From NCBI GenBank assembly GCA_017460885.1, contig JAFUAB010000046.1, positions 62,001-126,000 on the forward strand: 64,000 bases of DNA. The letters run 5' to 3'. A program made the translations under genes and the position numbers. Below the pieces are notes generated by a model. That model was not told the DNA's origin and did not search any database. It saw nothing but the letters and a program-made list of their open reading frames with translations. This document shows positions 23,705 through 25,982 of this stretch, one piece after another. Source of the stretch: Lachnospiraceae bacterium (lineage in GTDB: Bacteria; Bacillota; Clostridia; Lachnospirales; Lachnospiraceae). Every line of letters starts with the position of its first letter. The first letter of the stretch is position 1.

Positions 23705-23894
23705 AGAAGACATGCTTGAACTGACAAGACGGATGACTCCGTCCAGGAACTGCTTTTCAAGGATAGCCGGAGCGTACATGGATGAGGAAGGATATGAAGA
23801 CGGAACCTTCAACATACACTTTGGCAATGATAACAGTTCGATTCTGTTACACCCTACGCCTCTTTCGCCTAATGGTATGGCAGCTGTCTTGTAA
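23694..23894 (+). pseudogene. Truncated DUF4317-like gene, cut by tRNA-derived sequence
   Basis: Starting at GTG 23694 (GGGAGA 9 bases upstream), the first 43 residues (INREDMLELTRRMTPSRNC, then RIAGAYMDEEGYEDGTFNIHF) fit the N-terminus of DUF4317 proteins, which are normally several hundred residues long. After about base 23823 the likeness stops: the DNA changes to a tRNA T-arm fragment (AACAG-TTCGATT-CTGTT at 23832-23848) and then an intact tRNA-Thr, and the frame merely runs on through these to TAA at 23892. So only the 5' end of the gene remains. Confidence 0.5.
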
Positions 23895-23930
23895 ACAGCA
23901 AAAATCTCAGTTCGACTCTGAGGAGAGGCT
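23858..23930 (+). tRNA. tRNA-Thr (anticodon TGT)
   Basis: Acceptor GCCTCTT pairs with GAGAGGC, anticodon stem GCTGT/ACAGC encloses CTTGTAA (anticodon TGT, Thr ACA), T-arm CTCAG-TTCGACT-CTGAG. Discriminator T. Directly upstream (23832-23848) is an orphan T-arm of another tRNA. It is 277 bases ahead of the main tRNA array. Confidence 0.88.
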
Positions 23931-24041
23931 CTGCAGGAATAAAAGGATAGGAAAGGACAGGAGACAATGGAAGACTAGCGGGGGCAGCACCCGTCGAGAC
24001 TGCTATATACAATTGATCCAAGATAAAGAAGAGGAAAGAAC

Positions 24042-24137
24042 ATGAAAACACTTTTAACAAGACGAATTTCACAGAGACGATCACAATCCAGTCAGCAGTG
24101 CTGGATTAGTCGTCGTGGAAAGGAACCATATGGGTAA
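24042..24137 (+). CDS. Possible basic micro-ORF (31 aa)
   Basis: MKTLLTRRISQRRSQSSQQC and 11 more residues, with GAGG 8 bases before the ATG. Very basic and serine-rich, not recognised. It lies between tRNA-Thr and the array; the rest of 23931-24169 shows nothing else I can name. Weak support. Confidence 0.25.
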   Translation: MKTLLTRRISQRRSQSSQQCWISRRGKEPYG

Positions 24138-24169
24138 AGTGCAGATCGGATCAATGCGGCTGTGAGCTG

Positions 24170-24205
24170 GGGATCATTGCGAGGTCTGCGATGATCCCTA
24201 TTTTT
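24170..24205 (+). terminator. Rho-independent terminator just upstream of the tRNA array
   Basis: GGGATCAT and ATGATCCC form an 8-bp stem extended inside by GC pairs, followed by TATTTTT. It ends 2 bases before the first tRNA-Ser gene, so transcription of the array either starts very near or must read through it. Confidence 0.65.
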
Positions 24206-24207
24206 AT

Positions 24208-24342
24208 GCTGTGCATCCGAATGGTGAGGAGCCTGTTTGCTAAACAGGTGAGCTTAACGGCTTTGTGGGTTCGAGGTCTCCGCTCCGCTCCGGTCGGTGC
24301 TGAACGGATGTCCACTGGACATCCAGCACCCCACGCACGGCG
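24208..24342 (+). tRNA. tRNA-Ser (anticodon GCT) with a 53-nt insertion in the T-loop
   Basis: Acceptor GCTGTGC pairs with GCACGGC (one G-T). Anticodon stem CCTGT/ACAGG encloses TTGCTAA (anticodon GCT). A long variable arm follows, then T-stem GTGGG. The T-loop begins TTCGAG (24270-24275), is interrupted by 53 bases (24276-24328), and resumes with C and CCCAC. Removing the insertion restores the 7-base loop TTCGAGC. One base seems missing around position 8 (no U8). It would be scored as a pseudogene unless the insert is removed or tolerated in RNA. CCA not encoded. Confidence 0.75.
24276..24328 (+). other. 53-nt hairpin insertion in tRNA-Ser(GCT) T-loop
   Basis: Begins GTCTCCGCTCCGCTCCGGTC, then GGTGCT-GAAC-GGATGTCC-ACT-GGACATCC-AGCACC, where the two inner 8-mers pair perfectly and GGTGCT pairs with AGCACC (its last two C bases belong to the tRNA). 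Same length and position as the insert at 24417-24469. Confidence 0.8.
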
Positions 24343-24347
24343 CTCAT

Positions 24348-24483
24348 GGTGAGTTGGCTCAATGGTACAGCAGCGGTTTCGAAAACCGCCATTCCGAATG
24401 GATATCCGGGTTCAAGGTCTCCGCTTCGCTACGGTCGGCGCTAAACGGACATCCACCGGATGTCCAGCGCCCCGGGCTCACCG
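24348..24483 (+). tRNA. tRNA-Ser (anticodon CGA) with a 53-nt insertion in the T-loop
   Basis: Acceptor GGTGAGT pairs with GCTCACC (one T-G), U8 present, D-stem GCT/AGC, anticodon stem GCGGT/ACCGC around TTCGAAA (anticodon CGA), variable arm CATT-CCG-AATG. T-stem CCGGG/CCCGG is split: TTCAAG (24411-24416), 53 inserted bases (24417-24469), then C. Without the insert the loop is TTCAAGC, a normal T-loop. Apart from the insertion it is a fully canonical class II serine tRNA. It begins 5 bases after the previous tRNA. Confidence 0.8.
24417..24469 (+). other. 53-nt hairpin insertion in tRNA-Ser(CGA) T-loop
   Basis: Begins GTCTCCGCTTCGCTACGGTC, then GGCGCT-AAAC-GGACATCC-ACC-GGATGTCC-AGCGCC. Both stems pair perfectly. 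Differences from the copy at 24276-24328 in the stems are compensatory: GGTGCT/AGCACC becomes GGCGCT/AGCGCC, and GGATGTCC/GGACATCC becomes GGACATCC/GGATGTCC. Confidence 0.8.
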
Positions 24484-24486
24484 TAT

Positions 24487-24574
24487 GACAGATTAACCCT
24501 AACTGGTAAGGGACAGGCTTTGAATACCTGCAGTAGCCGGAAACGGTGTCTGGGTTCGAGTCCCAGATCTGTCG
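24487..24574 (+). tRNA. tRNA-Ser (anticodon TGA)
   Basis: Acceptor GACAGAT/ATCTGTC, anticodon loop TTTGAAT (anticodon TGA) closed by CAGGC/ACCTG with a C-A mismatch next to the loop, variable arm CCG-GAAA-CGG, T-arm TGGG-TTCGAGT-CCCA. No T-loop insertion. Third serine tRNA in a row. Confidence 0.88.
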
Positions 24575-24579
24575 TTTAA

Positions 24580-24650
24580 AGGTCTTTGGTGTAGCGGTAG
24601 CACGGGGAGCTCCAACCTCCCAAGCGTGGGTTCGATCCCTACAGGACCTG
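24580..24650 (+). tRNA. tRNA-Trp (anticodon CCA)
   Basis: Acceptor AGGTCTT/AGGACCT, anticodon stem GGGAG/CTCCC around CTCCAAC (anticodon CCA), T-arm GTGGG-TTCGATC-CCTAC. Discriminator G as expected for tryptophan. Confidence 0.9.
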
Positions 24651-24656
24651 CTTGAT

Positions 24657-24729
24657 GGCGATGTAGCCAAGCTGGTTAAGGCAACGGACTGCAAATCCGT
24701 GATCGTGAGTTCAAATCTCACCATCGTCT
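24657..24729 (+). tRNA. tRNA-Cys (anticodon GCA)
   Basis: Acceptor GGCGATG/CATCGTC, anticodon stem ACGGA/TCCGT around CTGCAAA (anticodon GCA), T-arm GTGAG-TTCAAAT-CTCAC. Discriminator T (U73), the main cysteine identity base. Confidence 0.92.
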
Positions 24730-24733
24730 TTAT

Positions 24734-24805
24734 ATCCCCGTAGTCTAACAGATAGAATACTTGGCTACGAACCAGGTGATGAGGGTGCGACTCCTTCCGG
24801 GGATA
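24734..24805 (+). tRNA. tRNA-Arg (anticodon ACG)
   Basis: Acceptor ATCCCCG/CGGGGAT perfect, anticodon stem CTTGG/CCAGG around CTACGAA (anticodon ACG, wobble A expected to be deaminated). The T-loop reads TGCGACT, with G where T55 is nearly universal; this is an oddity that may affect folding. Confidence 0.82.
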
Positions 24806-24809
24806 CTTT

Positions 24810-24896
24810 GGCAGCGTACTCTAATTGGTAAGAGGCTCGTTTGGAAGGCGAGTGTAACGAGGAATCGTGATGGAGGTTCAAATCCTCCGGCTGTCG
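24810..24896 (+). tRNA. tRNA-Ser (anticodon GGA)
   Basis: Acceptor GGCAGCG/GGCTGTC pairs at six positions with a mismatch at the base of the stem. Anticodon stem CTCGT/GCGAG around TTGGAAG (anticodon GGA), long variable arm, T-arm GGAGG-TTCAAAT-CCTCC. No T-loop insertion. Confidence 0.85.
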
Positions 24897-24899
24897 TAA

Positions 24900-24972
24900 T
24901 GCCGTGTAGTTCAGTTGGCAGAACGCCGGATTCTGATTCCGGAGATCGCAGGTTCGAGTCCTGCCACGGTAG
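24900..24972 (+). tRNA. tRNA-Gln (anticodon CTG)
   Basis: Acceptor TGCCGTG/CACGGTA, anticodon stem CCGGA/TCCGG around TTCTGAT (anticodon CTG), T-arm GCAGG-TTCGAGT-CCTGC. Discriminator G. Canonical. Confidence 0.92.
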
Positions 24973-24977
24973 TTAAT

Positions 24978-25050
24978 AGGCTTGTAGTGTAAACGGATAG
25001 CACAGAGGACTTTGACTCCTCTAATGTCGGATCATACCCGGCCGGGCCTG
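24978..25050 (+). tRNA. tRNA-Gln (anticodon TTG), unusual T-loop
   Basis: Acceptor AGGCTTG/CGGGCCT (two wobble pairs), anticodon stem GAGGA/TCCTC around CTTTGAC (anticodon TTG). The T-loop is ATCATAC between GTCGG and CCGGC, lacking T54 and the usual purine pattern, so folding or function is doubtful. Confidence 0.72.
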
Positions 25051-25053
25051 TAT

Positions 25054-25127
25054 ACGGATGTATCTCAGCTGGTAGAGTCCCCGTCTGATACGCGGGGTGT
25101 CGGTGAGTTCGAATCTCCCCATCCGTA
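25054..25127 (+). tRNA. tRNA-Ile (anticodon GAT)
   Basis: Acceptor ACGGATG/CATCCGT perfect, anticodon stem CCCGT/GCGGG around CTGATAC (anticodon GAT), T-loop TTCGAAT normal, one mismatch in the T-stem (GTGAG/CTCCC). Discriminator A. Confidence 0.87.
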
Positions 25128-25131
25128 TTAT

Positions 25132-25204
25132 GTCTGCGTCGCCAAAAGGATAAGGCACGAGATTTCTAATCTCGCATTTGTGGGTTCGAATCCTACCGCA
25201 GATA
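25132..25204 (+). tRNA. tRNA-Arg (anticodon TCT)
   Basis: Acceptor GTCTGCG/CGCAGAT, anticodon stem CGAGA/TCTCG around TTTCTAA (anticodon TCT, reads AGA/AGG), T-arm GTGGG-TTCGAAT-CCTAC. Last gene of the array. Confidence 0.9.
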
Positions 25205-25223
25205 CTGGATTTTAGGGGTGAAG

Positions 25224-25369: not shown

Positions 25370-25630
25370 ATGAACATGCCTTGTATCAAACCAATATCAG
25401 AACTGAAGAATTATCCAACGATCGTCAGACAGGTATCATATGGAAACAGGGTTTACTTTACGAAGAACGGACATGGGGCGTGTGCACTGGTAGATATAAA
25501 CGAACTGGATGAATTGGACAAGCAGAAAGCGCTTCTCAAACTCATGAGTAAGCTGAATGAGGCAAAGATTTCTGTTCGCGAAGAGGGTACTATATCAGCA
25601 GATGACCTCGAGAAGGAGTTGGGCATATAG
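25370..25630 (+). CDS. Phd/YefM-type antitoxin
   Basis: 86 residues. The N-terminal part (ISELKNYPTIVRQVSYGNRV then YFTKNGHGACALVDINELDEL) has the Phd/YefM fold pattern: helix, strand, the KNG turn and the VD-x-N-ELDE strand-helix. The rest is a charged helical tail that would wrap the toxin. Antitoxins of this family bind DNA at their own promoter and neutralise a RelE/ParE-like partner. The toxin gene follows one base after the stop, but it is interrupted by an amber codon. Ribosome binding site AAAGGTGG; ATG 25370 chosen, ATG 25376 is an alternative. Confidence 0.85.
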   Translation: MNMPCIKPISELKNYPTIVRQVSYGNRVYFTKNGHGACALVDINELDELDKQKALLKLMSKLNEAKISVREEGTISADDLEKELGI

Positions 25631-25631
25631 T

Positions 25632-25982
25632 ATGAAAAAGAAGGTGGAGTTTTCTCAGATCGTCAGAAAGAAAATGAAAAACCTGAAGAAATCACTTACT
25701 GACCGGTTTGATGAGGATACAGCCAAAAAGGGGTTAAGATTGATTGTCGATTCTGCAAAGGACCTGGCTGCCTTTCCGGAAAAAGGTGAAGCAGTTTCGG
25801 ATCTGTTTGATGTTGATACGGATTTTCGGATATTGTATGTGAACCATAACTATCTGTTCTATTATTTTGAAGATGACAAGATAATCGTTGCTTAGATGTT
25901 TGATGAACGGGAAGATTTTATGTATAAACTATTTGGTATAAGTAGTGAATCACAAGAGTCCTTGGATTACTGGGACGAATAA
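25632..25982 (+). pseudogene. RelE/ParE-type toxin interrupted by in-frame amber codon
   Basis: From ATG 25632 the frame encodes an 87-residue RelE/ParE-like protein ending DDKIIVA at TAG 25893-25895. The same frame continues past the TAG without another stop for 28 codons (MFDEREDFMYKLFGISSESQ, then ESLDYWDE) to TAA at 25980. That continuation is the usual C-terminal tail of this toxin group as I know it, so the TAG is a one-codon nonsense change, probably from lysine AAG. The toxin is either inactive, truncated or, less likely, made by read-through. The antitoxin upstream is intact. Confidence 0.75.

Follow-up and report, generated by a model that had tools for sequence, protein, structure and literature searches.

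Introduction

Inserts within tRNA genes are familiar as the group I and group II introns of bacteria and as the bulge-helix-bulge introns of archaea. Short palindromic repeats are likewise known. The REP and CGTC-tagged repeats, treated together with RAYT transposases, are reported to be short, oriented, palindromic and dispersed, to have stems of varying sequence, and to be suspected non-autonomous mobile DNA (PMC3733652). The Rickettsia palindromic elements (RPEs), given as 100–150 bp long, are reported to land inside existing genes, in this case protein genes (PMC3767692). Integrative elements reportedly leave partial tRNA 3′ ends that bound elements of kilobase size (PMC9897764).

The window, a 64,000-nucleotide stretch of a Lachnospiraceae genome, contains two neighbouring tRNA-Ser genes that are each interrupted by a 53-nt palindromic insert. 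Here, we propose that both inserts very probably belong to a mobile DNA repeat that is small, non-coding and non-autonomous. As far as the sources cover them, REP and RPE palindromes are the nearest known kinds, and the tags, length, target and transposase link differ. The element resembles the REP and CGTC-tagged repeats in all the respects listed above; unlike them, it shows no GTAG or CGTC tag, has a long invariant lead and a preference for the tRNA T-arm, and comes with no Y1 transposase in most genomes of the genus (PMC3733652). It resembles RPEs as a palindrome found inside existing genes and differs in being 53 nt long and located in tRNA loops (PMC3767692). As with integrative elements, a partial tRNA 3′ end often lies beside an intact tRNA; here, however, the partial copy stands at a distance of 39–230 bp and has a 53-nt palindrome in its midst (PMC9897764). 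From the introns, it is set apart by its size, its occurrence in both orientations, the lack of an Rfam intron match, and its copies outside tRNAs.

In the open-access literature, a scope with most subscription papers outside it, we found no description of this repeat or of such T-loop inserts in bacteria, nor of a T-arm-preferring 53-nt repeat that breaks several tRNAs per array. One survey of stem-loop families reportedly filtered out tRNA-related clusters, so that such a repeat could have been hidden from it (PMC2267715). The element explains missed and chimeric tRNA genes. It also provides a defined minimal substrate with which to seek a mobilising enzyme in Clostridia, and with it one can ask directly if an insert at T-loop position 59/60 is tolerated or processed by bacteria.

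Two tRNA-Ser Genes Interrupted in the T-Loop

The initial annotation described tRNA-Ser(GCT) and tRNA-Ser(CGA) as split at the same T-loop position by homologous 53-nt inserts whose removal restores the tRNAs, with no intact copy of either isoacceptor in the window. This description holds in each particular (Table 1). Both genes are broken after TTCRAG. From TTCGAG or TTCAAG to the 3′ side of the T-stem there are 54 nt in both; one of these belongs to the T-loop as its seventh base, on a side that is ambiguous, which leaves an insert of 53 nt. ARAGORN calls tRNA-Ser(GCT) once 52–53 nt are excised, and tRNA-Ser(CGA) once 47–56 nt are excised, with the best results at 51–54. Without excision, the program misses Ser(GCT) and draws Ser(CGA) with its 3′ end inside the insert; the unexcised Ser(CGA) scores 24.4 bits against the Rfam tRNA model, below the cut-off of 29. 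As read from the sequence, the acceptor stems and T-stems pair fully across both inserts, and TTCRA (positions 54–58) is unbroken in each gene. In the minimum-energy folds of the two unexcised genes, the acceptor stem and the element hairpin are present and the T-arm is not formed.

Table 1. Coordinates of the array, the two interrupted genes and their inserts in the window. Both inserts were also used to build covariance model R1.
Feature	Position	Strand	Basis
tRNA array, 12 genes	23858..25205	+	11 by ARAGORN; Ser(GCT) by eye and excision
tRNA-Ser(GCT), whole interrupted gene	24208-24342	+	acceptor GCTGTGC/GCACGGC, T-stem GTGGG/CCCAC, read from sequence
tRNA-Ser(GCT) 5′ part, up to TTCGAG in T-loop	24208..24275	+	sequence; ARAGORN after in silico excision
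Insert 1 in tRNA-Ser(GCT), palindromic element	24276..24329	+	R1 match 24275-24330, 82.2 bits
tRNA-Ser(GCT) 3′ part: T-stem CCCAC, acceptor GCACGGC, discriminator	24330..24342	+	sequence
tRNA-Ser(CGA), whole interrupted gene	24348-24483	+	acceptor GGTGAGT/GCTCACC, T-stem CCGGG/CCCGG, read from sequence
tRNA-Ser(CGA) 5′ part, up to TTCAAG in T-loop	24348..24416	+	sequence; ARAGORN after in silico excision
Insert 2 in tRNA-Ser(CGA), same element	24417..24470	+	R1 match 24416-24471, 82.4 bits
tRNA-Ser(CGA) 3′ part: T-stem CCCGG, acceptor GCTCACC, discriminator	24471..24483	+	sequence

Structure of the Repeat

The element consists of an invariant TCTCCGCTnCGCTnCGGTC followed by an imperfect palindrome, 53 nt in total. 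The palindrome has a 6-bp stem, a 4-nt one-sided bulge, an 8-bp stem and a 3-nt loop. Insert 1 has the core TCTCCGCTCCGCTCCGGTC and the hairpin GGTGCT-GAAC-GGATGTCC-ACT-GGACATCC-AGCACC; insert 2 has the core TCTCCGCTTCGCTACGGTC and the hairpin GGCGCT-AAAC-GGACATCC-ACC-GGATGTCC-AGCGCC. The two differ at 10 of 56 positions with hairpin pairing kept. A search of the window with the core pattern, allowing up to 3 mismatches, found just these 2 matches, compared with 0 in 100 shuffles.

Sixty-eight clostridial copies of standard length (from 71 candidate rows, three having been dropped to shorten the list) align without gaps over 56 columns, and an invariant T lies just outside the search pattern. 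By inspection, no terminal GTAG or CGTC tag is seen in the consensus and invariant columns of the 68 copies. The hairpin covaries: 98.6% of cells are paired, changes on both sides occur in 10 of the 14 pairs, and none of 500 shuffles scored as high. The 952 hairpin cells comprise 935 Watson–Crick pairs, 4 G–U pairs and 13 unpaired cells. Given so few G–U pairs, a DNA palindrome fits better than a structured RNA. Being dispersed, multi-copy and possessed of a covarying stem, the element is a short interspersed palindromic repeat in the broad sense.

The nearest copies in other genomes show 4 differences from each window copy, against the 10 between the window copies themselves. Since each window copy is closer to foreign copies than to its neighbour, two separate insertions would be more likely than the duplication of one interrupted gene, on an argument that is based on few sites.

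Distribution among Genomes

The exact core, CTCCGCTnCGCTnCGGTCGG, occurs in 4 of 7 genomes of the genus, in 36 of 299 genomes of the family, and in at least 118 stretches of genome contigs, some of which belong to a different repeat. Lachnospiraceae AC3007 and AD3010, Eubacterium ramulus 21 and E. cellulosolvens LD2006 are among the named carriers. With R1 at E ≤ 0.01, 10 matches are found in the window genome (G000), and matches occur in 5 of the 7 genus genomes. At E ≤ 1e-8 and with stricter filters, 12 of 291 genomes of the class have matches, six of them in the window's family; this class-level search recovers 5 of the 10 copies in G000. For the analyses below, copies were gathered by the exact core pattern, partly from the stretches just mentioned, of which there are at least 118. 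From 168 core matches, 23 were dropped for want of a hairpin and 31 more for carrying the other repeat's signature, leaving 114 copies; since some loci are orthologous and at least two (L139 and L149) look unrelated by eye, counts based on these copies are neither independent nor pure. Copies also occur away from tRNAs, and some sit inside another copy or a further repeat, as seen by eye at L092 and L128. When viral contigs were searched for T-loop copies, a single match appeared, and no tRNA flanks it.

Several other repeats touch on this family. A distinct repeat, present in Acidobacteria, Alphaproteobacteria, Planctomycetes and other groups, has the same 20-nt core followed by GATGAC- or AATGAC-like letters, and has no second hairpin by eye (L043, L045, L056, L062, L063, L072, L091, L100, L116 and others). 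At L076, L090, L110, L126 and L181, the element appears by eye to lie within a longer, composite palindromic repeat, GGATTnCTCCGCACTTCGTGCTC...CATTCGGAATCCGC. In another family of the class, variants of the element are nested in a repeat with CCTCCACCGC...AAGGGAGGC (L254, L258–L260, L263 and L265), and several of these variants are near contig ends. These contig-end copies were considered as an autonomous partner of the element and rejected, as they are nested in another repeat.

Association with tRNA Genes

The element is found preferentially in T-arms, whether these belong to tRNA genes or to duplicated tRNA 3′ ends; both orientations occur, and the bias is strong. For 38 of the 114 copies, ARAGORN finds a tRNA no more than 250 bp away; for control positions taken from the same loci, it does so in 35 of 3434 cases. 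At 27 of these 38 tRNA-proximal copies, the 3′ end of the nearest tRNA is duplicated at the element's flank, as described in the Introduction, versus 0 of 38 with shuffled ends. The usual order, seen in 24 chosen loci, is tRNA, terminator, hairpin, 5′ half of the T-arm, element, tRNA 3′ end, sometimes in tandem. The duplicated 3′ end is not a feature of the window copies.

Complete tRNAs that are split in the T-loop and restored by excision are found beyond the window's Ser(GCT) and Ser(CGA): Met in the genus relative G004; His in L075, L125 and L147; Lys, Glu(TTC) and Glu(CTC) in L075; and Lys in G991. Excision restored a split tRNA at 16 of 864 loose core positions, where shifted matches of one copy are counted apart, and at 10 of 2378 control positions, of which 4 lie outside intact tRNAs. 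Met and His carry the element reversed, and by reading, their first T-loop bases are disturbed. The L075 array is the most heavily affected, with 5 of its 6 tRNAs interrupted and Tyr alone uninterrupted; by reading, all the inserts are in loops, and the stems mostly pair across the inserts in its Lys, its two Glu and its His. The Lys gene is also drawn by ARAGORN without excision. The sixth tRNA, Ser(GCT)-like by reading, has its insert in the anticodon loop, and ARAGORN's call for it varies with the excision between Leu(AAG) and Ser(GCT). At the Pro(CGG) loci, the element is near the variable loop of a second, degenerate tRNA copy. Excision restored no tRNA there (L034, L151, L159 and L053), nor at L050, L168, L094 and L111.

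By reading, the L147 array contains a Lys/Glu chimeric tRNA joined at the element. The chimeric tRNAs in L147 and G004 show array decay. A tyrosine integrase gene adjoins the L147 array with its interrupted tRNAs and the Lys/Glu chimera (L147:1-2060).

The tRNA Array of the Window Genome

The order of the array is Thr, Ser-GCT (interrupted), Ser-CGA (interrupted), Ser-TGA, Trp, Cys, Arg, Ser-GGA, Gln, Gln, Ile, Arg. The genome comprises 3.6 Mb in 55 contigs and is 99.06% complete with 6.64% contamination by the tool's figures. It has 52 Rfam tRNA matches, of which 12 are in the window; the other 40 were typed, one of them (C5:1361-1433) being without an ARAGORN call. An intact Ser(CGA) is on contig C21 and an intact Ser(GCT) on C2, while Ser(TGA) and Ser(GGA) are intact on C6. 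Trp, Cys, Arg(ACG), Arg(TCT), Gln(CTG), Gln(TTG) and Thr(TGT) are also intact elsewhere, and Ile(GAT) is not among the typed tRNAs outside the window. The window array is redundant and its two interrupted tRNA-Ser genes are spare; with intact copies elsewhere, they are dispensable. The initial annotation had called for a check of the genome for intact isoacceptors and had reasoned that such copies, together with silence of the interrupted loci, would count against its reading. Both isoacceptors are present, and the remaining half of that argument concerns expression.

A related array of 18 tRNAs occurs in G004. There, a chimeric tRNA-Ser remnant, recognised by eye (L228:3344-3430), occupies the place taken in the window by Ser(GCT), Ser(CGA) and Ser(TGA). 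A homologous array with intact Ser(GCT) and Ser(CGA), that is, an empty site, was not among the 29 matches listed from 397 family genomes; those matches, with G000, G003 and G004 set aside, span only the element or one tRNA. The listed matches of phages and plasmids to the window array are of the size of one or two tRNAs.

The neighbours of the array are small ORFs without a Pfam domain, one of them weakly matching a phage family of unknown function, and the wider neighbourhood is chromosomal in look (an amidase and a ClpB-type gene). Directly downstream of the array, at 25370-25895, are genes for a Phd/YefM-like antitoxin (below the Pfam cut-off) and a ParE-like toxin.

Mode of Insertion

Two site comparisons bear on how the element arrives. 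Beside the array, G003 and G004 have a stretch in common that contains the element in G004 and lacks it in G003; the two versions differ by 53 nt, next to which are one substitution and one deleted base. In G004, an intact and an interrupted tRNA-Met stand side by side; at the T-loop, 53 nt and one substitution separate them. Target duplication is absent from both pairs, so that neither has the signature of a MITE with target-site duplication, and both agree with an IS200/IS605-like insertion, which leaves none. In principle, the two comparisons could instead reflect deletions.

The flanks of 80 copies, read on the element's strand, are biased. On the left, G is enriched at positions −10 to −7 and GG at −2 and −1; the right flank is enriched in pyrimidines; and these biases hold in the 53 copies without a T-arm-like flank. 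In the T-arm cases, the left flank tends to show a run of G and then TTCG(A). Insertion into hairpin loops was considered as a general rule and is not supported, since flank complementarity is not above that of shuffled flanks: pairing of left with right flanks is 9.0 versus 8.72 (sd 0.31) in 95 copies, some of the other repeat included, nor is there a clear excess at any fixed offset, since in each of three sets the 77 offsets gave a best z of about 2.5.

No recurrent transposase or recombinase is found beside the copies among the 14 largest ORF clusters listed (within 1.5 kb, 114 copies), and a Y1 transposase is absent from 6 of 7 genus genomes. The case for mobility thus rests on the distribution and on the two site comparisons.

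Taken together, the two orientations, the copies outside tRNAs or nested in other repeats, and the insertion pairs lead us to read the element as a non-autonomous mobile DNA palindrome. It would land by preference in a T-arm, in either orientation, without duplicating its target. Its hairpin would be recognised as folded or palindromic DNA by a putative enzyme acting in trans. In the window, the insertions would have hit spare tRNA-Ser genes, and the redundancy of these genes suggests that the damage was harmless. The suggestion in the initial annotation of a minimal integrating element stands in this form, namely, as a 53-nt interspersed repeat with a preference for the T-arm and insertion without target duplication.

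Alternative Explanations

The fully paired stems of the window genes, and the mostly paired ones of L075, would also suit an insert that is handled at the RNA level, as a tRNA intron representing a class new to bacteria, excised and sealed, for example, by RtcB. In G991 (L272), an RtcB gene follows immediately downstream of the interrupted tRNA-Lys. Each of the five other genomes with complete split tRNAs (G004, G991, G997, G998 and G999) has RtcB; in the family, a stricter search, which is a different measure, found a close RtcB in 43 of 200 genomes. This co-occurrence is expected if the insert is processed as RNA and is not predicted if the element is a mobile repeat; the arrays of G997–G999 are closely related, so the five genomes amount to about three independent cases. 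RtcB was also found in one of three further holders of the element (reached via L049, L127 and L134) and not in G017 (L169). Against an intron, RtcB (PF01139) is absent from the window genome and from 5 of the 6 other genus genomes, which makes RtcB splicing in the window genome unlikely. Moreover, the insert RNA would differ in the reversed Met and His copies, copies occur outside tRNAs, G–U pairs are few, the L147 array has its Lys/Glu chimera, and the group I and II intron models of Rfam have no match, tRNA being the only family matched in the window stretch. We therefore regard an intron as very improbable, and the new kind of processed insert that the initial annotation had entertained is not borne out for the window, where orientation, non-tRNA copies and the missing RtcB all speak against it; in the other genomes with split tRNAs, which have RtcB, the insert may be processed. 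Alternatively, as the initial annotation also considered, the tRNAs might be made with the extra hairpin at 59/60 and function, the insert serving as a neutral or useful fifth arm. The contiguous TTCRA and fully paired T-stem and acceptor of both window genes, and the confinement of the inserts in L075 to loops in 5 of 6 tRNAs, would be in accord with such an arm. The missing T-arm in the minimum-energy folds, the disturbed T-loop bases of the Met and His copies, the decay evident in the chimeras, and the dispensability of the window genes argue against it, and it strikes us as rather improbable. Equally doubtful, in our estimation, is a bolder scheme in which a T-loop-specialised 53-nt element spreads through mobile tRNA arrays, up to the interruption of the majority of their tRNAs (5 of 6 in L075), while the split tRNAs are still made, with an extra arm or after processing. 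If true, processing in RtcB-bearing hosts would include ligation, and the element would be a parasite hidden in a structural blind spot of the tRNA.

The reading as a mobile repeat leaves the type of mobility to be considered. One candidate is a mini integrative element, for which a tyrosine recombinase uses the tRNA T-arm as its attachment site and the duplicated 3′ ends are att-like repeats. The frequency of those 3′ ends near intact tRNAs (27 of 38 tRNA-proximal copies), the tandem units and the integrase gene beside the L147 array fit this idea. An integrase is, however, neither within the element nor recurrent beside its copies; the window, Met, His and Lys copies split their tRNAs without a new 3′ end; and both orientations occur. 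On balance, we consider such an integrative element unlikely. A REP-like element, moved by a transposase of the IS200/IS605 type (Y1, RAYT) acting on a single-stranded hairpin, would account for a short, oriented palindrome with sequence-biased flanks and no target duplication. Its chances are reduced to a low level by the lack of a GTAG/CGTC tag at the alignment ends and by the scarcity of the enzyme: the window genome gives a single, partial Y1 match, and the 6 other genus genomes, copies being present in four of them, give none. Finally, an error of assembly or binning might be feared in a draft genome with the contamination figure given above. Independent genomes carry the element in tRNA T-loops and beside the related array, and we judge the probability of an artefact to be close to negligible. 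The preferred reading remains that of a small non-autonomous mobile repeat.

tRNA Genes Upstream of rtcB

The G991 arrangement, with an element-split tRNA-Lys upstream of the RtcB gene (L272:1450-2819), seemed at first to speak decisively for RtcB splicing; this was rejected for the window genome, where rtcB is absent. None of 30 related rtcB loci gave a tRNA restored by excision together with a core match at a comparable count. Excision signals without the core occur at L298 and L301, with three variants at L306 and single ones at L278. At L282 and L288, excision restored no tRNA, and an element-like hairpin is seen by eye just upstream of rtcB. In 6 of the 30 related Lachnospiraceae rtcB loci (L278, L279, L283, L294, L298 and L306), an intact tRNA (Leu, Lys or Ile) lies 20–30 bp upstream of the RtcB gene.
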